A program made the translations under genes and the position numbers. Below, piece after piece: positions 4,414 through 15,491 of a DNA stretch of 64,000 nucleotides. The notes under the pieces are model-generated. The model searched no databases. It saw nothing but the letters and a program-made list of their open reading frames with translations, and was not told the origin of the DNA. The stretch's first letter is position 1, and each line of letters begins with the position of its first letter. Source of the DNA: Lysobacter gummosus (GTDB lineage: Bacteria; Pseudomonadota; Gammaproteobacteria; Xanthomonadales; Xanthomonadaceae); the NCBI RefSeq assembly GCF_001442805.1, contig NZ_CP011131.1:3286001-3350000 (forward strand), in the 5' to 3' direction.

Positions 4414-5331
4414 TCAAGCCTGCGCGCGCAGCCACGCCAGCAGCGCGGCCGCCGGCGAGCCTTCGCTTATCGCCTGCGGCGAAAGCAGGTGATAACCGCT
4501 GCCGTCGGCGGCGAACCCCTGCGGCGCGACCAGCACACCGGCCTCGATATCGTCGCGCACCAGTTGCCACGGCCCGATCGCGACGCCCACGCCGGCCGCC
4601 GCGGCCTGCAGACTGAAGTAGAAATGTTCGAACGCCTGCGTCTGCACGACCGGTACGCGCCGTCGCGCCGCCCGCGCCCAATCGGCCCAGGCGCCGAGTC
4701 GGGTCGCGCTGTGCAGCAACACCGCCGATTCGTCCCACTGCGCGCGCCGGCCCTCGCCGCGCAGATGCCGCGCGCGATAGGCCGGACTGCACACCGGGCC
4801 GACCCGTTCTTCGAACAGCAACTGCGCGTGCACGCGCCGGCCCCAATCGAAATCGTTGCGGCGGATCGCCAGATCGATCTCGCCGAACCCGACCGGACCT
4901 CCGCCGGCGACCAGTTGCAGGCCGATGCCCGGATGCGCGGCCTGGAACGCCGGCAGGCGCGGAATCAGCCAGCGCATCAGCAAGGTCGGCTCGCACGACA
5001 GCACCAGCGCGGGCTTGCGCGGCGGCTCGCGCAGTTCGCGAACCGTGGCGGCGAGTACGTCGAAGGCCGCGGCGGTGGCATCGCGCAGACGCTCGCCCGC
5101 CGCGGTCAGGAATACGCGCTGGCTGCGGCGCTGGAACAGCTCGACCGCGAGCGCGTCCTCGATCGAACGCACCGCGCGGCTGACCGCGCCGTGGGTCAGA
5201 TGCAACTCCTGCGCGGCGCGGGTGAAGCTGCCCAGGCGCGCGGCTGCCTCGAAACAGCGCAGCGCGCCCAGCGGCGGCAGCTCGCCGCGCCGATAGCGTG
5301 AGTTTTCCTCACCAGGCTTGTGATCATTCAT
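4414..5331 (-). CDS. LysR family regulator (GcvA-like)
   Basis: A 305-residue LysR-type regulator. The winged helix-turn-helix occupies residues 18-77, with ALRCFEAAARLGSFTRAAQE and LTHGAVSRAVRSIED. The effector domain follows and reads like the GcvA/AmpR/DsdC branch (SCEPTLLMRWLIPRLPAF, DLAIRRND). It is divergent from the LysE-type exporter with only 65 bases between starts. LysR/LysE divergent pairs are a known arrangement in which the regulator turns on export of its amino acid ligand, so that role is inferred here. Confidence 0.88.
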   Translation of the reverse strand: MNDHKPGEENSRYRRGELPPLGALRCFEAAARLGSFTRAAQELHLTHGAVSRAVRSIEDALAVELFQRRSQRVFLTAAGERLRDATAAAFDVLAATVRELREPPRKPALVLSCEPTLLMRWLIPRLPAFQAAHPGIGLQLVAGGGPVGFGEIDLAIRRNDFDWGRRVHAQLLFEERVGPVCSPAYRARHLRGEGRRAQWDESAVLLHSATRLGAWADWARAARRRVPVVQTQAFEHFYFSLQAAAAGVGVAIGPWQLVRDDIEAGVLVAPQGFAADGSGYHLLSPQAISEGSPAAALLAWLRAQA

Positions 5332-5396
5332 GGTTTGCGGCCTCGATCCAGCGCCTCTAATTTAGCCTTATCCCCGAACTCCGGCGCAGCCCCCCG

Positions 5397-6676: not shown

Positions 6677-6980
6677 GAATCGTGTATCCCTGCAAGCGGA
6701 GCGATCGCGGCCGTCGAAAAGCGGCGCTGCTCAGGATTATGCCTGCGCTTCGTCGATGATCGAGCATGTCGGCCGGCCAGACCCGACCTGATCAGGCCGC
6801 AACCGCAGCCATCCGCAACTACTGCGCCGTCACCCTCGGCCGAGCTTTGTATCCGAATGTATCCAACCACCCCATCCGTGCGTTTGGCTGACAAATCCCC
6901 GCCTGCGCCGACACCCTGACGATACCGCGACGCCCCGAAATAGCCCCATCCCAACCGGGCCGGCCTTTCAGGAGCGAACC
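6677..6980. other. Intergenic region upstream of the hvf operon
   Basis: About 300 bases between the divergently arranged exonuclease and hvfX. It must contain the promoters for both. An AGGAG ribosome binding site sits at 6970-6974, six bases before the hvfX ATG. I found no convincing dyad operator for a metal regulator. Confidence 0.5.
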
Positions 6981-7667
6981 ATGCGGTATCTGCCTTCCAC
7001 CCTCTCCTCCCTCACCCCGCGCATCGATGCGGTGGGCCGCTGGCTCGCGCCGACCGGTCTGCGCGTGTTGCTGGCTTGGGAATTCTTCGAAGCCGGCCGC
7101 GAGAAGTGGTTGGGCGAGAACTGGTTCGCCGATCTGGGCGACAAGTTTCCGCTGCCGTTCTCGCTGCTCGGGCCCGATGTGAACTGGACCCTGGCCACCT
7201 GGCTGGAACTGAGCGCCAGCATTGCGCTGCTGTTCGGACTGGGCACGCGCTACGCGGCCTTCGCGCTGTGGGTGCTGACCGTGGTCGCCATCTACGCCGT
7301 GCACTGGCCCAGCGATTGGTCGAGCCTGAGCGAACTGTGGCAGGGCTACGCGATCAGCGACCAGGGCCACGGCAACTACAAGCTGCCGCTGCTGTATCTG
7401 GTGATGTTGCTGCCGCTGATCCTCAACGGCGGCGGCCACCTCAGCCTCGATCATCTGCTGAGCGCCGCGCGAACCGCCCGCGCGAACAGCGGCTTCGATC
7501 GCCGCGCCTGGGGCGTGACCGCACTGGCCTTCGGCTTGCCGCTGAGCCTGCTGCTGCCCTGGCTCGGCGGCGCGATGGCCGCCGTCGGCGTCGCCCTGAT
7601 CGCATTCAAGCCCGGCCGCGCTGCCGATTCGGGCGCGATGACGAAGGCCTTCGCCGCGGCTCGTTAA
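6981..7667 (+). CDS. hvfX: HvfX-like DoxX family membrane protein
   Basis: A 228-residue DoxX-type membrane protein with four to six hydrophobic helices. Its segments [39 protein letters not shown] and the [19 protein letters not shown] helix match the DoxX proteins found with DUF692/DUF2063 genes (HvfX in Haemophilus, GigT in gold-induced operons). Family members in these operons are thought to work on, or export, the copper-binding RiPP, but the molecular role is not settled. It is the first gene of the operon, with a clean AGGAG ribosome binding site, followed 116 bases later by the precursor gene. Confidence 0.85.
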
Positions 7668-7783: not shown

Positions 7784-8209
7784 ATGTCCCGTAACGACTC
7801 GACCACCCGCACCTCGACCCGCAACCACAGCCTCGGCCTGATCGGCGTCGCCCTGGCCGGCGGCATGTTCCTGAGCGGTTCGGCCTTCGCCGTGCAGCCG
7901 CTGGCCCAGGGCTATCTCGCCTCGGCCGGCCACGCCGCCAAGGCCGGCGAAGGCAAGTGCGGTGAAGGCAAATGCGGCGAAGAGAGCTTCGCCAAGACCG
8001 ACACCAATCACGACCAGAAGGTCTCGCGCGAAGAGTTCATCGCCGCCGCGCCCAAGCGTGCCGCCGAGTTCAATCAGATCGACACCGACAAGAACGGCAG
8101 CATTTCCCTGCCCGAAGCCCTGAAGTCGGTCGAAGCCGCGCGCAAGGCCGCCGGCAAGTCGGTGGGCGAAGGCAAGTGCGGCGAGGGCAAGTGCGGCGGT
8201 CAGGCCTGA
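7784..8209 (+). CDS. hvfA: HvfA-type metallophore RiPP precursor with EGKCG motifs and EF-hands
   Basis: A 141-residue exported precursor. Residues 1-36 are a Sec signal peptide with a twin of Ser/Thr/Arg residues, a hydrophobic core and an SAFA cleavage site. Two EGKCG motifs follow at 56-65 (Cys59, Cys64) and two more at 129-138 (Cys132, Cys137), four residues from the C-terminus. EGKCG cysteines are the sites modified by DUF692/MNIO enzymes to oxazolone-thioamide or thiooxazole in HvfA and bufferins, which bind copper. Between the pairs lie two canonical EF-hand loops: [12 protein letters not shown] (73-84) and [12 protein letters not shown] (100-111), both with all acidic ligands. The ATG has GGAGAA upstream. 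A hairpin with a T-run follows before the enzyme gene. Modification and metal binding are inferred. Confidence 0.88.
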
Positions 8210-8256: not shown

Positions 8257-8276
8257 CTTCCATGCGAGATGCCGCG

Positions 8277-9134
8277 ATGAACGACTTCCACGCTTCCACC
8301 CACGCCGGTCTCGGCCTGCGCCGCGGCCTGTTGCCCGAACTGCTGACGATGGACGAGCACGCCGTGGATTTCCTCGAATGCGCGCCCGACAACTGGATCG
8401 GCGTCGGCGGCCGCTTCGGCGAAGCGCTGGCGCAGTTGTCCGCGCGCTTTCCGCTGAGCTGCCACGGTTTGTCGCTCTCGCTCGGCGGCACACAGCCGCT
8501 GGATACGGTGCTGTTGACTCGCACTCGCAAATTTCTCGATCGCCACCAAGTGAGCCTGTACAGCGAGCACCTGAGCTACTGCAGCGACGACGGCCATCTG
8601 TACGACCTGATGCCGATCCCGTTCACCGACGAAGCCATCCACCACGTCGCCGGCCGCATCCGCCAAGTGCAGGATCTGCTGGGCCGGCGCATCGCGGTGG
8701 AGAACGTCTCCTACTACGCCGCGCCGTATCAGGCGCTGAGCGAAGCCGACTTCATCCGCGCGGTGCTGGCCGAAGCCGATTGCGATCTGCTTCTGGACGT
8801 CAACAATCTTTTCGTCAACGCCTGCAATCACGGCTACGACGCCGGCCAATTCCTGGCCCGGCTGCCGGCGCAGCGCATCGCTTCGATGCACATCGCCGGC
8901 CATTACGACGAAGCCGAGGATCTGAAGGTCGATACCCACGGTGCGCCGGTCAAGGGCGAGGTGTGGTCCCTGCTCGAACAGGCCTATGCGCGTTTCGGCG
9001 TGCGCCCGACCCTGCTGGAGCGCGATTTCAATTTCCCGCCGTTGAGCGAGCTGCTGGCCGAAACCGATCGCATCCGCGCGATGCAGGCCGCGGCGATGAG
9101 CTCGGCCGACCGCCGCGAGGCCAGCCATGACTGA
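8277..9134 (+). CDS. hvfB: DUF692/MNIO RiPP-modifying oxidase (HvfB)
   Basis: A 285-residue TIM-barrel protein of the DUF692 (MNIO) family, multinuclear iron enzymes that oxidise peptide cysteines. Metal-ligand motifs are visible in order: [44 protein letters not shown] and a late DTHGAPV. In the family these His, Asp, Glu and Asn residues hold the iron cluster. Start at 8277 gives MNDFHAST; an in-frame ATG at 8262 is possible but has no better ribosome binding site. Its stop overlaps the start of hvfC by eight bases, so the two are translationally coupled, as expected for enzyme and partner protein. Confidence 0.93.
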
Positions 9135-9915
9135 GCGTCTGCGCGAACAGCAATACACCCTTGCCCGCCACCTGCGCGATCCGGCCCGGCACGCGCCGCC
9201 GCCGGGTATCGAAGAGCGCCGCCTGCGAATCTATCGCGAGTTGTTCTTCGGCTCGATCGAATCCCTGCTCGCCGGCAGCTTCCCGGTGATCCGCCAGACC
9301 CTGGACGAAACCCGCTGGCGCGCGCTGGTGCGAGCGTTCTACGCCGACCATCGCAGCCAGACGCCGTTGTTCACCCGCATCGCCGCCGAGTTCGTCGCCT
9401 TCGTGCAGCACTACGAGGCCTTGCGCGATGACGCGCCATGGCTGGCGGAACTGGCGCATTACGAGTGGGTGGAGATCGATCTGCAACTCAGCGACACGCC
9501 CGCATCGGCGCATCGCGCCGACGGCGACTTGCTCGACGCGATGCCGCTGCTGTCGCCGCAAGCGCTGGCGCTGGGCTATCGCTGGCCGGTGAACCTGATC
9601 GGCCCGCACCTGCAACCGCGCACACCGCCGCAGTTGCCGACCTTGCTGCTGGTGCATCGCGACGCCGGGCACGAAGTGCGGTTCGCGCAGATCGCGCCGC
9701 TGACTTATCGGCTGCTGCAGTCGCTGCACAACCATCGCTGGTCCGGCCGCCGTCACCTGCACGCGCTGGCGGAGGAAACCGGCGGCGACGCCGACCAACT
9801 GCAGGCGCAGGGGCTGGCCTTGCTGGAACGGCTTCGCGAGCAAGGAATCGTGCTCGGCACCGCCGCGGACGATGCGCCGCCTCCTTCTTTCACTTCCACT
9901 CGGAGCGACCCATGA
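9127..9915 (+). CDS. hvfC: HvfC-type DUF2063 partner protein of the MNIO enzyme
   Basis: A 262-residue DUF2063-family protein. The N-terminal part (about 5-100) carries the typical [20 protein letters not shown] and FPVIRQTL...WRALVRAFY segments, and a C-terminal winged-helix-like part follows. In Haemophilus and in bufferin systems this protein pairs with the DUF692 enzyme and recruits the precursor. It overlaps hvfB by eight bases and the next gene by ATGA, so the operon is tight here. The old annotation of the family as putative DNA-binding is not supported by context. Confidence 0.9.
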
Positions 9916-10568
9916 ACCTGCAAACCACGACGCCGCTGACCAGCGGTTGGAAACTGTTCGGCGTGATCGCCGCGCTGATCCTGGCCATGTCCGCCGCCAT
10001 CTTGTGGGCGCATGCGGATCCGGTCGAAGGCGTGCGCAGCCTCATCCGCGCCACGGCCCGCACCTCGTTCACCCTATTCCTGATCGCCTTCACCGCCTCG
10101 GCCTTCGTCGCCCTGGTGCCGGCGCCGTGGTCGAAGGCCGTGTTGCGCGAACGCCGCTACATCGGCCTGGCCTTCGCGTTTTCGCATCTGGTGCATGCCA
10201 TCGCGATCTACAGCTACGGCCGGCTCGCGCCGGAGTTCTGGCCCGGCCGCACCGGTTTCGCGAATGTGCCCGGCTCGGTCGGTTACCTCTTCATCGTGTT
10301 GATGACCGTCACCTCGTTCAAACCGGTGGCGCGCCGCCTCAGCGCCGTTGCCTGGAAACGCCTGCACACCACCGGCATGTGGGTGATCGCGGCGGTGTTC
10401 GCTTCCTCGTATTTCAAGCGCATCCCGATGGATTCGGCCTATGCGATCCCGTTCGGGATCCTGCTGGCGGCGATCGCGATCCGCCAGGTCGGCAAGCTTG
10501 CGCAAGCCAACAAACGCCGTCAGACCGCAACGCGCGGCGCCGCTCAGTACCCAACCGAAGCCGCGTAG
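9912..10568 (+). CDS. Ferric-reductase-like transmembrane protein (MsrQ-like)
   Basis: A 218-residue membrane protein with about six hydrophobic helices and few charges. Paired histidines in AFSHLVHAIAIY and RLHTTGMWVIAAVF are where b-type haem would sit in the ferric reductase/MsrQ-like domain. It starts on the ATGA overlapping the hvfC stop, so it belongs to the same transcription unit. Being coupled to a metallophore operon suggests electron delivery across the membrane, either to copper/iron or to the modified peptide; this is inference. A second, canonical msrQ lies at 44171, so this copy is a specialised paralogue. Confidence 0.75.
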   Translation: MNLQTTTPLTSGWKLFGVIAALILAMSAAILWAHADPVEGVRSLIRATARTSFTLFLIAFTASAFVALVPAPWSKAVLRERRYIGLAFAFSHLVHAIAIYSYGRLAPEFWPGRTGFANVPGSVGYLFIVLMTVTSFKPVARRLSAVAWKRLHTTGMWVIAAVFASSYFKRIPMDSAYAIPFGILLAAIAIRQVGKLAQANKRRQTATRGAAQYPTEAA

Positions 10569-10636: not shown

Positions 10637-11062
10637 ATGATCAAGCAAACCGAACAAGTGCTTTACACCGCCCACACCCACACCACCGGCGGCCGCGACG
10701 GCAGCGGCCGCTCCAGCGACGGCGCCATCGACGTCAAGCTCAGCACGCCCGGCTCGGGCCGGCCGGGCAGCAATCCCGAGCAGTTGTTCGGCATCGGCTA
10801 TTCGGCGTGCTTCATCGGCGCGATGCAGTTGGCCGGCGCCAGGCTCGGCATCAAGCTGCCGGCCGACGCCGCCATCGACGCCGCGGTGAGCCTGGGCAAG
10901 ACCGACGGCGGCGCCAGCTACCTGCTCTCGGTGAAGTTGACCGTGATCCTGCCGGGCCTGGACGACGCGCGGAAGCATCAGCTGGTCGAAGCCGCGCATC
11001 AGACCTGCCCGTACTCGCATGCCACCCGCGGCAACGTCGATGTCGAGTTCGAGATCGTCTGA
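10637..11062 (+). CDS. ohr: Ohr family organic hydroperoxide reductase
   Basis: A 141-residue OsmC/Ohr fold enzyme. The two catalytic cysteines are visible: Cys58 in FGIGYSACFIGAMQ and Cys124 in HQTCPYSHATRGN. The N-terminal VLYTAHTHTTGGRDG matches Ohr rather than OsmC. It reduces organic hydroperoxides in the cytoplasm using lipoylated proteins. The neighbouring gene is not an OhrR (MarR) regulator, which is unusual for ohr; instead it follows the hvf cluster by 68 bases. A strong hairpin terminates it. Confidence 0.93.
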   Translation: MIKQTEQVLYTAHTHTTGGRDGSGRSSDGAIDVKLSTPGSGRPGSNPEQLFGIGYSACFIGAMQLAGARLGIKLPADAAIDAAVSLGKTDGGASYLLSVKLTVILPGLDDARKHQLVEAAHQTCPYSHATRGNVDVEFEIV

Positions 11063-11074
11063 CTCCACGCCGGC

Positions 11075-11104
11075 CCCGCGTGCGCACCGCGCACGCGGGT
11101 TTGT
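11075..11104 (+). terminator. Intrinsic terminator after ohr
   Basis: Perfect 11-base stem CCCGCGTGCGC (11075-11085) and GCGCACGCGGG (11089-11099) with a 3-base loop, then TTTGTGT. It closes the hvfX-to-ohr block. Confidence 0.75.
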
Positions 11105-11223
11105 GTAAGCCAATGTAACCGCGCCGCTTACGACAGCTTCGCTTACAAAAACCGGCCGCCGCGAAACACCGCCGATACGCCGCGCCGCTGCAATAGCCGC
11201 TCACTCCCAACGAGATTCTCCCC

Positions 11224-12015
11224 ATGCTCCGCACCGTATTGTTCAGCGCCCTGGCTTGCGCATCGTTGCTCTCCACCACCAGCGCCGCCACGGAAAAAAG
11301 CGACGCAAGCGCGCCTGCGACCGTGGTCCTGGTCCACGGCGCCTTCGCCGACGGCGCCAGTTGGAACAAGGTCATCGCCATCCTGAATTCCTGGGGCGTG
11401 CCGTCGATCGCGGTGCACAGCCCGTTGACCTCGCTGCAGGATGATGTCGACGCGACCCGTCGCGCGATCAAGGCCGCGCCGGGCAAGGTGGTGTTGGTAG
11501 GCCATTCCTGGGGCGGCACCGTCATCACCCAGGCCGGTGTCGATGCGCAGGTCAGCGCGCTGGTCTACGTCGCCGCGTTCGCCCCCGATGTCGGCCAGAA
11601 CAGCGCCGATCAGGGTCGCGATTTTCCGGTTCCGCCCGGACTGAGCAGCCTGCAGAACCGCGACGGATTCCTGTGGCTCAGCCAAGCCGGCGTCGCGCGC
11701 GATTTCGCACCGGACCTCAAGCCGCGCGAGTCGCGCCTGTTGTTCAACACCCAGGCGCCGATCAAGGCCAGCGCGTTCGGCGAAGCGGTCACGCAGGCCG
11801 CGTGGCGGACCAAGCCGAGCTGGTACGTGATCGCGCGCAACGACCGCATGCTCGCGCCGCAACTGCAGGCCGCGACCGCGCAGCGCATCCACGCGCAGGT
11901 GAGCTCGACCGGCTCCAGCCATGTCGCGCCGCTGTCGCAACCGCGCGAGGTGGCGTTCGCGATTCTCGAAGCGGCCGGCGTCAAAACGCAAGACAGCGTG
12001 CAAGAGGGAGGCTGA
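11224..12015 (+). CDS. Exported alpha/beta hydrolase
   Basis: A 263-residue alpha/beta hydrolase with a signal peptide (residues 1-21, ending TSAA). The nucleophile elbow is GHSWGG, preceded by the oxyanion segment LVHGAFADGASW. The late SSHVAPLSQP supplies the catalytic His. It resembles the exported EstC/MEKC-like hydrolases annotated as alpha/beta hydrolase in Xanthomonadaceae. Substrate unknown. The gene is followed after three bases by ccdA, so they are likely co-transcribed. Confidence 0.85.
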   Translation: MLRTVLFSALACASLLSTTSAATEKSDASAPATVVLVHGAFADGASWNKVIAILNSWGVPSIAVHSPLTSLQDDVDATRRAIKAAPGKVVLVGHSWGGTVITQAGVDAQVSALVYVAAFAPDVGQNSADQGRDFPVPPGLSSLQNRDGFLWLSQAGVARDFAPDLKPRESRLLFNTQAPIKASAFGEAVTQAAWRTKPSWYVIARNDRMLAPQLQAATAQRIHAQVSSTGSSHVAPLSQPREVAFAILEAAGVKTQDSVQEGG

Positions 12016-12018
12016 GCC

Positions 12019-12741
12019 ATGTTCGCGCACGGCATCGCCGAATACGCCCTGGCCGGCGTCGCCGGCCTGGCCACCATCGCCTCGCCCTGCATCCTGCCGG
12101 TGCTGCCGATCGTGCTGGCGGCCACCTCCGGACGCAGCCGCGCCGAACCGATGTGGATCATCGCTGGCTTCACCGCCAGCTTCGCCGCCGGCGGCATCGC
12201 CATCGGCGCCTTGTCGGCGTTCTCCGGCGAACTGCAATACGGCATTCGCAACGCCGCCATCGTATTGCTGCTGCTGGCCGGATTGGCTTGCTGGTGGTCG
12301 GCGCCGTTCGACTGGCTCGCAGCGCAGGTGCAGCAGCGGCTGTCCACTCGCATCGCGCGGACCTCGGCGCAGACCGTGCCGCGCACCGGCAAGGGCGGCG
12401 CGTTGTTGGTCGGCGCCTCGCTCGGACTGGTCTGGACGCCGTGCGCCGGGCCGATCCTGGCCTCGGTGCTGGCCCTGGCCGCCTCGGCGCAGGCGCCGGC
12501 CAAGGCCACCGCCCTGCTCGGCCTTTACGCGCTGGGCGCCGGCGTGCCGCTGCTGGCCATCGCTTACGGCGGCCACTGGGTGTCGTCGCGCCTGGCGTTC
12601 TTCAACCGCCATGCGCTGCCGATCCGCCGCGCCTTCGGCGCCATCGCCGTCGCGGTCGCGGTGCTGCAACTGCTGCAGTACGACGTCGTCTTCTCGGCCT
12701 GGGCCACGCAATGGCTTCCCGCTGTGTCCACCGGACTTTGA
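12019..12741 (+). CDS. CcdA-type thiol-reductant transporter
   Basis: A 240-residue inner-membrane protein of the DsbD/CcdA transmembrane family. Two proline-flanked cysteines are present: SPCILPVLPIVLA near residue 24 and WTPCAGPILASVL near 140. These shuttle electrons from cytoplasmic thioredoxin to periplasmic proteins. It lies directly upstream of a secreted CxxC protein, the natural electron acceptor. Compared with full DsbD, the terminal periplasmic domains are missing, as in CcdA. Confidence 0.9.
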   Translation: MFAHGIAEYALAGVAGLATIASPCILPVLPIVLAATSGRSRAEPMWIIAGFTASFAAGGIAIGALSAFSGELQYGIRNAAIVLLLLAGLACWWSAPFDWLAAQVQQRLSTRIARTSAQTVPRTGKGGALLVGASLGLVWTPCAGPILASVLALAASAQAPAKATALLGLYALGAGVPLLAIAYGGHWVSSRLAFFNRHALPIRRAFGAIAVAVAVLQLLQYDVVFSAWATQWLPAVSTGL

Positions 12742-12760
12742 CTTCACGAAGGAATTCACC

Positions 12761-13318
12761 ATGAACAAGACCCTGAGCCTGCTCAAACCCGTCTTCTGCG
12801 CGCTGTGCCTGTGCCTCGCCGCCGGCGCCTGCACGCCCGGCGCTCACGCCGAGCCGGTGCACGGCACCCAGACCTTGCCCGCGCGCAAGGCGCCGGAGTT
12901 CGAAGGCATCGACCGCTGGATCAACAGCCCGCCGCTGACCATGGCCGGTTTGCGCGGCAAGGTCGTGCTGGTCGAGTTCTGGACTTACTCGTGCATCAAC
13001 TGCATCCATGTCATGCCCTACGTGAAGCAGTGGCATCAGCGCTATCAACCCGCCGGCCTGACCGTGATCGGCGTGCATACGCCGGAATACGGCTACGAGA
13101 AGATCGCGCGTAATGTCGATGCGGCGGTGAAGCGCTTCGGCATCGAGTACCCGGTCGCGCAGGACAACGCCTTCGCCACCTGGAACGCCTACCGCAACCG
13201 CTACTGGCCGGCGCTGTATCTGATCGATCGCGACGGCCACGTGGTCTACGAGCACTTCGGCGAAGGCGGCTACGCCCAGACCGAGGCCAAGATCCAGCAA
13301 CTGCTGCAGGCGCGCTGA
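12761..13318 (+). CDS. Periplasmic thioredoxin-like (redoxin) protein
   Basis: A 185-residue protein with a signal peptide/lipobox-like N-terminus (residues 1-30, LAAGACTPG). The thioredoxin fold carries YSCINCIHVMPYV with a CINC active site, and the cis-Pro loop in RYWPALYLIDRDG. The CINC and TYS context matches the DipZ/TlpA-like redoxins often linked to CcdA. It probably receives electrons from the CcdA protein 19 bases upstream. A Cys at the end of LAAGAC suggests it could be a lipoprotein; this is not certain. Confidence 0.88.
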   Translation: MNKTLSLLKPVFCALCLCLAAGACTPGAHAEPVHGTQTLPARKAPEFEGIDRWINSPPLTMAGLRGKVVLVEFWTYSCINCIHVMPYVKQWHQRYQPAGLTVIGVHTPEYGYEKIARNVDAAVKRFGIEYPVAQDNAFATWNAYRNRYWPALYLIDRDGHVVYEHFGEGGYAQTEAKIQQLLQAR

Positions 13319-13422
13319 GCCGGCGTCACAGCGCACGCGCCGCGACGCCTGCGCTTGCTGGGGCATAATCGCGAACAGGCCGAGTCCGGGCCTGGCGTCC
13401 TTTCCACCGGCGGGATTTGTGC

Positions 13423-14163
13423 ATGAAACAGCTCGATCACATCCTGATCGTCGATGACGATCGCGACATCCGCGAAATGGTCGCCGACTATCTGCAAAAG
13501 AACGGCCTGCGCACCACCGTGGCCGCCGACGGCCGGGAAATGCGCGCGGTGCTCGACACCCACGCGGTCGATCTGATCGTGCTGGATGTGATGATGCCGG
13601 GCGAAGACGGCTTGGTGCTGTGCCGCAATCTTCGCGCGAGCAAGCACCGTTCGATCCCGGTGTTGATGCTGACCGCGCGCGACGACGCCACCGATCGCAT
13701 CATCGGCCTGGAAATGGGCGCGGACGACTACGTGGTCAAGCCGTTCTCGGCGCGCGAGTTGCTGGCGCGGATCAATGCGGTGATCCGTCGCACCCGCATG
13801 CTGCCGCCGAACCTGCAGATCAGCGAAGCCAGTCGGCTGATCGCGTTCGGCCAGTGGCGATTGGACACCAGCGCGCGTCATCTGCTCGATGAGCAGGATA
13901 CGGTCATCGCGCTCAGCGGCGCGGAGTTCCGTCTGCTGCGGGTGTTTCTCGATCATCCGCAGCGCGTGCTCAGCCGCGATCAACTGCTGAACCTGACCCA
14001 GGGCCGCGACGCGGAGCATTTCGACCGCTCCATCGACCTGCTGGTCAGCCGACTGCGCCAGCGCCTGCAGGACGGCGCGCGCGAGCAGACCTACATCAAG
14101 ACCGTGCGCAGCGAGGGCTATGTGTTCTCGATGCCGGTCACCCTGGTCGGCGACGAGGCATGA
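13423..14163 (+). CDS. OmpR family response regulator
   Basis: A 246-residue two-domain response regulator. The receiver domain has acidic pair Asp11-Asp12, phosphoacceptor Asp55 in IVLDVMMPG, and Lys106 in VVKPFSA. The C-terminal winged helix (about 145-238) has the typical SGAEFRLLRVFLDHP and RSIDLLVSRLRQRL. It overlaps the histidine kinase gene by ATGA, so they form a pair. Given its location after the ccdA-redoxin genes, it may control thiol, copper or envelope stress genes; this is inference only. Confidence 0.92.
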   Translation: MKQLDHILIVDDDRDIREMVADYLQKNGLRTTVAADGREMRAVLDTHAVDLIVLDVMMPGEDGLVLCRNLRASKHRSIPVLMLTARDDATDRIIGLEMGADDYVVKPFSARELLARINAVIRRTRMLPPNLQISEASRLIAFGQWRLDTSARHLLDEQDTVIALSGAEFRLLRVFLDHPQRVLSRDQLLNLTQGRDAEHFDRSIDLLVSRLRQRLQDGAREQTYIKTVRSEGYVFSMPVTLVGDEA

Positions 14164-15491
14164 ACGCCGCGGCCGCCCAAACGCCATCGAAATGGCTGCC
14201 GCGCAGCATCGCTTCGCGGCTGTACCTGATCCTGTTCGCCGGCCTGCTGCTCGCGCACGGATTGTCGTTCGGCCTGTTGTTCTATGAGCGCTACGTCACT
14301 GCCACCTCGATGATGCTCGGCAATCTGGAGCAGGACGTGATCACCTCGGTCGCCGTGCTCGACCGCATCCCTGCCGCCGAACGCGCGGAATTCCTTCCGC
14401 ACCTCACCCGCCGCACCTACCGCTACGTGCTCAGTTCCGGCGAGTCCGGCAGCGCCGAACTCAGCGAACGCGCGCAGAACATCACCCGCCTGATCGGCTC
14501 CGCATTGGGCCCGCGTTATCCCGTGCGCGCCGAGACCGTCTCGCGGCGCCCGGAGCGCATCCAGGTTCACCTGACCCTGGGCGACGGCCATCCGCTGACG
14601 ATCGAAGTCGCGCCCTCGACGATGCCGATCGCGCAATGGCTGCCGTACGTACTGGCGATCCAACTGGGCTTGCTGCTGCTGATCACCTGGCTGGCGGTGC
14701 GGCTGGCGACGCGGCCGCTGGCATGGCTGGCCAACGCCGCCGAATCGCTGAGCCCCAGCGGCGGTAGCGAACCTCTGCGCGAAGGCGGCCCGACCGAAGT
14801 GGCCAAGGCCGTGTCGGCGTTCAACGCGATGCAGGACCGCATCGCCGCCTACCTGAGCGAGCGTCTGCAGATTCTCGCGGCGATCTCGCACGATCTGCAG
14901 ACGCCGATCACGCGCATGAAGCTGCGCACCGAAGCCATGGACGAATCGCCGCTGCGCGCCAAGCTGATCGACGATCTCGACGAAATGCAGCACCTGGTGC
15001 GCGAAGGCGTCGCCTACGCGCGCAGCGCCCACGGCGCGTCCGAGCCGCCGCTCAAGCTCGATCTGGACGCGTTCCTCGACAGTCTGGTGTTCGATTACCA
15101 GGACACCGGCAAGGACGTAGTCCTGGCCGGATGCGTCGGCGCGCCGATCTTTACCCGCCCGCACGCGCTGCGCCGGGTAATCGGCAATCTGATCGACAAC
15201 GCCGTCAAGTACGCCGGCGCGGCCGAGGTGGAAGTCGTGCGCGCCGCCGACGGCGGCATCGCCGTCAGCGTGCTGGATCGCGGCCCCGGCATTCCGGAGC
15301 TCGAACTCGACGCGGTGCTGCAACCGTTCTATCGCCTGGAGGCCTCGCGCAACCGCGACAGCGGCGGCGCCGGCCTGGGATTGGCTATCGCTCAACAGCT
15401 GACGCTGTCGTTGAACGCGAAGCTGGTCCTGGAAAACCGCGAAGGCGGCGGTTTGCGCGCCACCTTGTCGCTGCCCTCGGCGAAGGCCTGA
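14160..15491 (+). CDS. Sensor histidine kinase
   Basis: A 443-residue membrane kinase. The first membrane segment is about residues 20-42, then a periplasmic domain of about 115 residues, and a second segment about 161-182. HAMP follows to about 235. The phosphoacceptor is His244 in ISHDLQTPITRMK. The ATPase domain shows the N box (VIGNLIDNAVKYA), G1 (DRGPGIPE) and G2 (GGAGLGLAIAQQ). It is most like EnvZ/RstB-type OmpR partners. The periplasmic sensor has no recognisable ligand motif; no cysteine or His cluster is visible in it. Confidence 0.92.
   Translation: MNAAAAQTPSKWLPRSIASRLYLILFAGLLLAHGLSFGLLFYERYVTATSMMLGNLEQDVITSVAVLDRIPAAERAEFLPHLTRRTYRYVLSSGESGSAELSERAQNITRLIGSALGPRYPVRAETVSRRPERIQVHLTLGDGHPLTIEVAPSTMPIAQWLPYVLAIQLGLLLLITWLAVRLATRPLAWLANAAESLSPSGGSEPLREGGPTEVAKAVSAFNAMQDRIAAYLSERLQILAAISHDLQTPITRMKLRTEAMDESPLRAKLIDDLDEMQHLVREGVAYARSAHGASEPPLKLDLDAFLDSLVFDYQDTGKDVVLAGCVGAPIFTRPHALRRVIGNLIDNAVKYAGAAEVEVVRAADGGIAVSVLDRGPGIPELELDAVLQPFYRLEASRNRDSGGAGLGLAIAQQLTLSLNAKLVLENREGGGLRATLSLPSAKA

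Follow-up and report, generated by a model that had tools for sequence, protein, structure and literature searches.

EfhP, BfmR, and the EGKCG peptides

The Ca2+ sensor EfhP (PA4107) is encoded in an operon with DUF692 and DUF2063 genes and carries EF-hand loops at residues 88-99 and 115-126 (PMC4053335). It possesses four EGKCG repeats, the cysteines of which have been proposed to sense iron (Fe) (PMC11559002). EfhP binds Ca2+ selectively with a Kd of 13.7 uM, changing shape and growing more hydrophobic with Ca2+ (PMC9132961), and it affects iron-uptake genes (PMC9132961, PMC11559002); in the available portions of these two papers, the work on EfhP concerns calcium and iron, not copper. For the Ca2+ assays, EfhP lacking the signal peptide was produced in E. 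coli (PMC9132961), and such protein was probably unmodified.

In P. aeruginosa, the efhP, pa4103, and bfmRS promoters are the top three BfmR regions, with efhP being the most highly activated gene (PMC8025907). BfmR-bound regions number 174 in that species (PMC8025907), and the box thus marks a wide regulon there. The motif obtained from ChIP-seq is TACAA-N3-GATACA, or TGTATC-N3-TTGTA as its reverse complement (PMC8025907). BfmR shifts PA4107 DNA in gels and leaves a footprint at PA4103—a gene holding pfam01794—where a GATACA-type motif is needed (PMC4148453).

EGKCG peptides receive thiooxazoles and bind Cu (PMC12668002, PMC13419390). With FonBC, a FonA-like substrate possessing two repeats was modified and a single-repeat one was not, so an EGKCG pair can be a full substrate unit (PMC12668002). 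A 2025 survey described a second type of EGKCG precursor, in which two EF-hands lie behind a short EGKCG domain; it cites EfhP and suggests for these fusions a role in copper homeostasis, or perhaps in Ca2+ homeostasis or signalling (PMC12452194). The fusion of EF-hands with EGKCG motifs is already published, and the survey removes any novelty of that combination as such. Among the matches listed in the literature searches, no paper was recognised as treating double-ended precursors or as joining BfmR with MNIO chemistry, and supplements may list double-ended forms; of those matches, PMC11559002 alone contained both 'bfmr' and 'egkcg'. The additions made here are the double-ended form, two Cys-loop registers, and a class-wide BfmR-type box. 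The locus joins three bodies of literature that were loosely linked in the searches made here, namely those on EfhP as a Ca2+ sensor, on BfmRS as a two-component system, and on the MNIO-made copper peptides.

The Lysobacter locus and its described relatives

The locus lies within a 64,000-nucleotide stretch of Lysobacter gummosus DNA (contig NZ_CP011131.1), referred to as the window.

Table 1. Features of the precursor locus and the linked regulator, by position in the window
Feature	Position	Strand	Basis
Predicted BfmR box, TGTATCCGAATGTATC	6848..6863	+	117 bp upstream of first gene; conserved, motif-like
HvfX / DoxX membrane protein	6981..7667	+	NF050144, 138.6 bits (cut-off 80); PF07681
Double-ended EF-hand/EGKCG precursor (EfhP-type HvfA), 141 aa	7784..8209	+	Motif patterns, Pfam, NCBIfam, homologues
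Presumed Sec signal peptide, residues 1-36	7784..7891	+	By eye; near-invariant cut region
N-terminal EGKCG pair, Cys59 and Cys64	7949..7978	+	Motif, alignment, codon comparison
EF-hand loop 1, residues 73-84	8000..8035	+	Pfam, alignment, structure model
EF-hand loop 2, residues 100-111	8081..8116	+	Pfam, alignment, structure model
C-terminal EGKCG pair, Cys132 and Cys137	8168..8197	+	ANGKxxPxGLF-like tail there in single-ended relatives
HvfB, MNIO maturase	8262..9134	+	NF003818, 429.6 bits (cut-off 360); PF05114
HvfC, RRE/DUF2063 partner protein	9127..9915	+	NF050145, 289.6 bits (cut-off 142)
Ferric-reductase-like membrane protein	9912..10568	+	PF01794, 32.7 bits (cut-off 28); overlaps HvfC end
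OmpR-family response regulator, BfmR-like	13417..14163	+	79% identical over 242 aa to the protein named BfmR of Pseudomonas aeruginosa (P0261)
Sensor histidine kinase, BfmS-like	14160..15491	+	Best NCBIfam EnvZ, below cut-off

The precursor resembles EfhP in its presumed signal peptide, its EGKCG repeats, and its two EF loops set 27 residues apart, and the resemblance extends to the Pseudomonas aeruginosa module of PA4106-PA4105, PA4103-PA4104, and BfmRS (PA4101-PA4102): MNIO and DUF2063 genes, a ferric-reductase-like PF01794 gene, BfmRS nearby, and a BfmR-type box. However, EfhP is described with four EGKCG repeats and EF loops spanning residues 88-126, whereas the window protein has two EGKCG motifs before its EF-hands and two after them. 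The window also differs from the EfhP locus in that HvfX comes first and that Ohr, hydrolase, DsbD-like, and thioredoxin-like genes stand before the regulator. EfhP was not found by name among the matches listed in the homologue searches, and the proposed kinship of the two proteins is drawn from published descriptions, gene order, and regulator identity.

The Buf_EGKCG/EF-hand_5 fusions share an EGKCG domain, two EF-hands, and MNIO, DUF2063, and DoxX genes with the window, but their EF-hands lie behind the EGKCG domain, and the main text of the survey mentions neither BfmR nor a two-component system (PMC12452194). The double-ended precursor is a variant of these fusions, since a second EGKCG pair (residues 129-138) follows its EF-hands. 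HvfA/oxazolin of Haemophilus influenzae and fontiphorin (captophorins) have EGKCG repeats and HvfB- and HvfC-type enzymes, and the oxazolin operon also includes HvfX; these peptides differ in being described, in the available parts of the sources, with no mention of EF-hands. On the HvfA equivalog model NF050188 the window protein scores 22.6, far under the cut-off of 95, and so is not filed as HvfA proper. Lanmodulin is likewise a small EF-hand protein with weak sequence and fold similarity to the precursor, but membership of the lanmodulin or XopAW families was rejected on scores far below their cut-offs (NF053806, lanmodulin, 18 bits versus 135). Lanmodulin is not known to carry EGKCG motifs.

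The precursor protein

A sequence-only reading of this DNA had described a protein of 141 residues with two EGKCG motifs, two EF-hand loops, and two more EGKCG motifs, and both translation and profile models bear this out. The four motifs occupy residues 56-60, 61-65, 129-133, and 134-138, and the protein has no cysteine outside them. Both EF loops match the canonical 12-residue pattern; PF00036 scores 32.1 bits against a cut-off of 25.4, with PF13202 and PF13499 also over their cut-offs, and the EGKCG-pair model NF050137 scores 31.7 against 19.5 in two stretches. Read by eye, the presumed signal peptide would be cut near residue 36, between AFA and VQ, and residues F35, A36, P39, L40, Q42, G43, and Y44 around this point are nearly invariant in the alignment of 89 homologues.

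The search for precursor homologues returned 807 at E <= 0.001, the near relatives being named Lysobacter. The sequence-only reading had proposed looking for relatives with both EF-hands and EGKCG motifs. Pattern matching was applied to 121 proteins, made up of the query and the 120 best of the 807, and in every one it recognised EGKCG-type motifs together with one EF loop or more. Within this same set, EGKCG motifs lie on both sides of the EF-hands in 25, including the window protein, and before them only in 96; in some of these relatives only one EGKCG precedes the EF-hands. The only invariant columns in an alignment of 89 sequences, hand-picked from the 121 with near-duplicates excluded, are L24, E61, G62, C64, G65, F96, D73, E84, D100, and E111. 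D73/E84 and D100/E111 are positions 1 and 12 of EF loops 1 and 2, and their invariance is claimed for the 89-row alignment alone, because position 1, and very nearly position 12, is built into the pattern used to recognise loops; P0091, outside that alignment, is a known exception with Glu at position 1 of loop 2. The earlier proposal of a Ca2+-binding core thus gains from ligand positions conserved in 89 homologues and from Ca2+ binding by the relative EfhP.

A codon comparison of seven same-genus copies (21 pairs) covered both EGKCG ends and the EF core. The 10-residue N-terminal cassette shows 42 synonymous codon differences and no amino-acid difference, and the 10-residue C-terminal cassette shows 6 and none, versus 122 synonymous and 143 amino-acid differences in the 39-codon EF core. 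A chance or mis-framed ORF is ruled out by homologue conservation together with these synonymous-biased changes.

The spacing of these elements defines two registers. Among 203 distinct precursors—15 of 218 entries, without a recognised loop pair, having been dropped—the last N-terminal Cys lies nine residues before EF loop 1 in 164 and six before it in 37, with distances of 13 and 18 in one precursor each. The EF loops are 27 residues apart in 177 of the 203, window protein included, and in the same survey a gap of anywhere between 9 and 28 residues separates loop 2 from the first C-terminal Cys. The nearly fixed spacing on one side and the variable distance on the other point to an N-side pair anchored to EF helix A and a free C-side pair. 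At least four of the dropped rows are true EF/EGKCG precursors in which one of the two loops is atypical, being either altered or shortened (P0035, P0045, P0091, and L069 at 4977-5381), the others being non-EF or spurious frames.

An AlphaFold model of the precursor, built with 89 sequences, places helices at residues 64-72, 82-88, 90-99, and 109-122, with short strands at the loops. Overall confidence is low (mean pLDDT 52.6, pTM 0.32); block means are 67-78 over residues 71-120, 51 over 61-70, and below 50 at both ends. The model of an N-sided relative (P0062) contains the same elements at a pLDDT of 75-89 (mean 57.4, pTM 0.40), and an EF-pair fold is predicted for the precursor. The model leaves both EGKCG ends disordered, and its pLDDT is near 50 where helix A begins (Cys64), so the idea that the core positions the metal-binding ends draws no support from it. 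Foldseek with the precursor model gave no match at E <= 0.001 (best E 5.7e-3); the matches listed were mostly calmodulins, with polcalcin and lanmodulin also present, and lanmodulin was the first match when the family profile was compared with the PDB by sequence.

Distribution and origin of the double-ended form

The sequence-only reading had called an EF-hand in a RiPP uncommon, a view that does not hold: the type is published (PMC12452194), and EF precursors occur in 18 of 20 genomes of the window's genus (7 double-ended, 11 N-sided). Across 93 loci with a usable HvfB (L164 relabelled), 40 precursors are double-ended, 30 are N-sided, and 23 lack EF-hands.

In a weakly resolved tree of 114 EF cores over 50 columns, the six-residue class (33 rows, two odd ones included) is split from the nine-residue class (81 rows) with support of 100/100. 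The 18 double-ended members of the nine-residue class, among them the window protein, form one clade (100/98) within the N-sided ones. A single origin of the double-ended form was rejected because double-ended precursors fall in two separate clades of this tree, which has only 50 columns; on these clades, the C-terminal EGKCG end appears to have arisen, or to have been lost and regained, at least twice.

The HvfB proteins of seven Lysobacter-type and four Pseudomonas double-ended members of the nine-residue class do not form one clade (p-AU 1.8e-35), which rejects a single maturase lineage for these precursors; a single clade is not rejected when only the HvfB proteins of the seven same-genus members are considered (p 0.217). 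Because the HvfB proteins of the double-ended clade are not one clade, precursor and maturase have changed partners.

Operon and neighbouring genes

HvfX, precursor, HvfB, and HvfC are contiguous, and the three partners all score over curated cut-offs, which supports the earlier reading of an HvfA-type precursor. The same order is common to the 17 other same-genus loci read. The ferric-reductase-like protein encoded after HvfC is 51% identical over 210 aa to a gene product in L082; by sequence similarity its gene corresponds to the one that neighbours HvfX in Pseudomonas chengduensis, and it probably corresponds to PA4103 as well. Such a gene lies near 17 of 17 nine-residue-class loci in the genus and 9 of 53 outside it, versus none of 27 other loci.

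Between the cluster and the BfmR-like pair, positions 10664-13318 encode an Ohr-type peroxiredoxin, an alpha/beta hydrolase, a DsbD-like membrane protein (scoring below its cut-off), and an AhpC/thioredoxin-like protein (12761-13318). These genes share a thiol/peroxide theme but are not constant among relatives, and Ohr was discarded as a core part of the module, being present in only 13 of 66 loci counted.

HvfB is not always adjacent: no match was found in the flanks of 31 of 80 EF/EGKCG precursor loci, some of which end early at contig ends, and this was counted against the preferred reading. The flanks concerned are L043, L045-L058, L060, L061, L069, L072, L073, L076, L077, L080, L083, L085, L087, L088, L091, L098, L100, and L103. 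The upstream box described below is present at no more than one mismatch in 28 of these 31 loci, and precursors with no HvfB nearby may be modified in trans.

A BfmR-type box and its linked regulator

DNA alignment of 18 same-genus loci revealed a conserved element upstream of HvfX, which in the window reads TTTGTATC-NN-AATGTATCC. At one mismatch or fewer, TTGTATC-N4-TGTATC has two sites in the 6.06-Mb genome and its reversed pattern has none. The reverse complement of the box resembles the published BfmR motif (PMC8025907), and TGTATC-N4-TGTATC is predicted from this to be a BfmR site. The sequence-only reading had noted neither this box and the BfmRS-like genes nor the kinship with EfhP. Boxes of other OmpR-type regulators were dropped as candidates after the BfmR papers were found.

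The scan for the box reached at most 1.35 kb ahead of the first EGKCG codons, the DNA available for L011-L040 covering only about 1.06-1.34 kb before the precursor frame. The best box has zero, one, or two mismatches in 39, 23, and 9 of 71 nine-residue-class loci, respectively. The nine loci with two mismatches provide no evidence, since the reversed pattern is also found in 9 of the 71 at that level (and in none at one mismatch or fewer). At one mismatch or fewer, the box precedes 62 of the 71 nine-residue-class loci versus none of 56 other EGKCG loci (0, 0, and 4 at zero, one, and two mismatches), a count that left out loci with no readable precursor (L021, L033, and others), scored L069 as 'other' despite its EF precursor, and includes one probably mislabelled locus (L039, 'sand3'). 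As 18 of the 71 loci belong to one genus and many are close kin within Pseudomonas, Fisher and hypergeometric p-values should not be taken as independent. Outside the window's genus, the box is found with zero, one, or two mismatches in 23, 21, and 9 of 53 loci, giving 44 of 53 at one mismatch or fewer. The published BfmR motif yields a weaker contrast (44 of 71 versus 2 of 56 at one mismatch or fewer; none when reversed).

The BfmR-like regulator is encoded around 5 kb downstream in the window. Its partner kinase and the kinase linked to the P. chengduensis locus share 58% identity over 428 aa; among linked orthologues, kinases are 53-96% and regulators 77-99% identical. With the window itself excluded, 26 of 70 nine-residue-class loci have a BfmR-like regulator in the flank, versus none of 27 others. 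By origin, this amounts to 17 of 17 loci in the genus and 9 of 53 outside it, with flanks there of at most 5 kb; the 44 of 53 with no regulator in the 5-kb flank were counted against the preferred reading. The regulator is downstream in 15 of the genus loci and on the other side, divergently oriented, in L163 and L164.

Across the order, the regulator occurs in 37 of 299 genomes (E <= 1e-115). Of the best 30 precursor loci of these 299 genomes, 3 have no EF-hands and the remainder fall into the nine-residue (11) and six-residue (16) classes. In all 11 nine-residue-class genomes the regulator is on the same contig within about 6 kb, an outcome with a chance of 2.4e-11 under independence if relatedness is ignored; it is present in 3 of the 16 six-residue-class genomes (G032, G211, and G235), on another contig or far away. 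Within the genus, 19 of 20 genomes have the regulator, and it was not found in the remaining one (G405), which has no EF precursor. The regulator is not exclusive to EF/EGKCG clusters: 26 of the 37 regulator genomes have no nine-residue-class precursor among the best 30 loci of the order, and in G272 a BfmR-like regulator is encoded at G272:C2:546932-547669 with neither an EF precursor nor an exact box found in that genome.

The only other exact box in the window's genome is at G000:C1:2187691-2187707 on the minus strand (L174, about 5192-5208). It precedes a gene for an alpha/beta hydrolase with, by eye, a twin-arginine-like start, a pairing seen in 5 of 20 genus genomes.

Proposed mechanism and alternatives

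We consider it probable that the precursor is the Lysobacter EfhP: an exported, BfmRS-controlled protein whose EGKCG cysteines HvfB and HvfC would turn into copper-binding 5-thiooxazoles around a Ca2+-binding EF pair. Gene set, motifs, conservation, box, linkage, and fixed spacing are read here from the DNA itself; relatives contribute BfmR binding at efhP, Ca2+ binding by EfhP, and thiooxazoles on EGKCG peptides, and by analogy an EfhP-type, MNIO-modified periplasmic precursor probably binds Cu. From these we infer the chemistry of the precursor itself, the role of the linked regulator in controlling it, and the proposed change from an open cytosolic to a folded periplasmic state.

BfmR would activate the operon via the TGTATC-N4-TGTATC box. 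Cytosolic Ca2+ is low. At such low free Ca2+ the EF core would remain open, allowing HvfBC, guided by the signal peptide or leader, to reach the cysteines on both sides and the open chain to be threaded by Sec. In the Ca2+-rich periplasm, the EF pair would then fold and the modified pairs would be held next to helix A and after helix D, giving a Ca-stabilised copper-holding protein. Opening and folding are suggested by the Kd of EfhP and by reports that periplasmic Ca2+ reflects or exceeds that outside (PMC9132961), and the modification by FonBC of a two-repeat but not a one-repeat substrate (PMC12668002) fits pairs at both ends, although some relatives carry just one EGKCG ahead of the EF-hands. 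A more elaborate form, which we regard as speculative and unlikely, is a copper clamp gated by calcium. Here the EF pair would be open while in the cytosol and would close on reaching the periplasm, and its closing would join both thiooxazole pairs, one at the mouth of helix A and the second after helix D, into a four-ring copper site, with Ca2+ as the gate and BfmRS as the conserved on-switch of this captophorin subclass.

The same protein could be a Ca2+ sensor first, its EF-hands sensing periplasmic Ca2+ and signalling to partners and its EGKCG pairs serving iron sensing or redox rather than copper holding. The selectivity of EfhP for Ca2+, its greater hydrophobicity with Ca2+, its effect on iron-uptake genes, and the suggested Fe sensing (PMC9132961, PMC11559002) all speak for this, as does the ferric-reductase-like gene after HvfC. 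Yet HvfB and HvfC are encoded beside the precursor, the characterised EGKCG peptides carry copper-binding thiooxazoles (PMC12668002, PMC13419390), and the EfhP assays used protein that was probably unmodified (PMC9132961), which leaves the sensor reading doubtful, albeit with some chance of being right. If, conversely, the precursor were a plain copper buffer, the EF pair would be a harmless, stable, soluble spacer and Ca2+ would have no regulatory role. EGKCG chemistry indeed does not need EF-hands, since the same genome encodes an EF-less EGKCG precursor with a close relative in all 20 genus genomes (best E 1.5e-34 or lower). However, the invariance of loop positions 1 and 12 in the 89 chosen homologues, the near-fixed Cys-loop spacing, and the nine-residue class's own control box are not required of a mere spacer, and such a buffer seems unlikely.

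The C-terminal EGKCG pair might also be an unmodified relic, or be cut off, leaving the N-terminal pair to do the work, and 96 of the 121 proteins compared, the query plus its 120 best matches out of 807, do have no C-terminal EGKCG. We hold this to be quite improbable: the pair has no amino-acid changes among the seven same-genus copies versus many in the core, it seems to have arisen or been regained more than once, and a pair can be a full substrate unit, as with the FonA-like peptide (PMC12668002).

Should EfhP-type proteins be modified RiPPs, Ca2+ measurements made without the modification may overlook half of the molecule, and the output of a main BfmR target would become testable chemistry. 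In the double-ended form, the question of whether folding with Ca2+ positions metal-binding rings can be put to a compact test.

Other EGKCG clusters

The EF-less precursor of the same genome belongs to a second cluster (L009 4001-7910; G000:C1:3648000-3651909) and carries EGKCG, EGSCG, and EGTCG motifs. This cluster has its own HvfB, HvfC, and HvfX-like genes with an ECF sigma factor gene upstream, and no exact TGTATC box was found in the L009 stretch. EF-hands are absent from the four relatives of its precursor that were read (L012, L013, L014, and L026). In Lysobacter prati, two genes for N-sided EF/EGKCG precursors flank a single HvfB/HvfC pair (L110 2696-5483).
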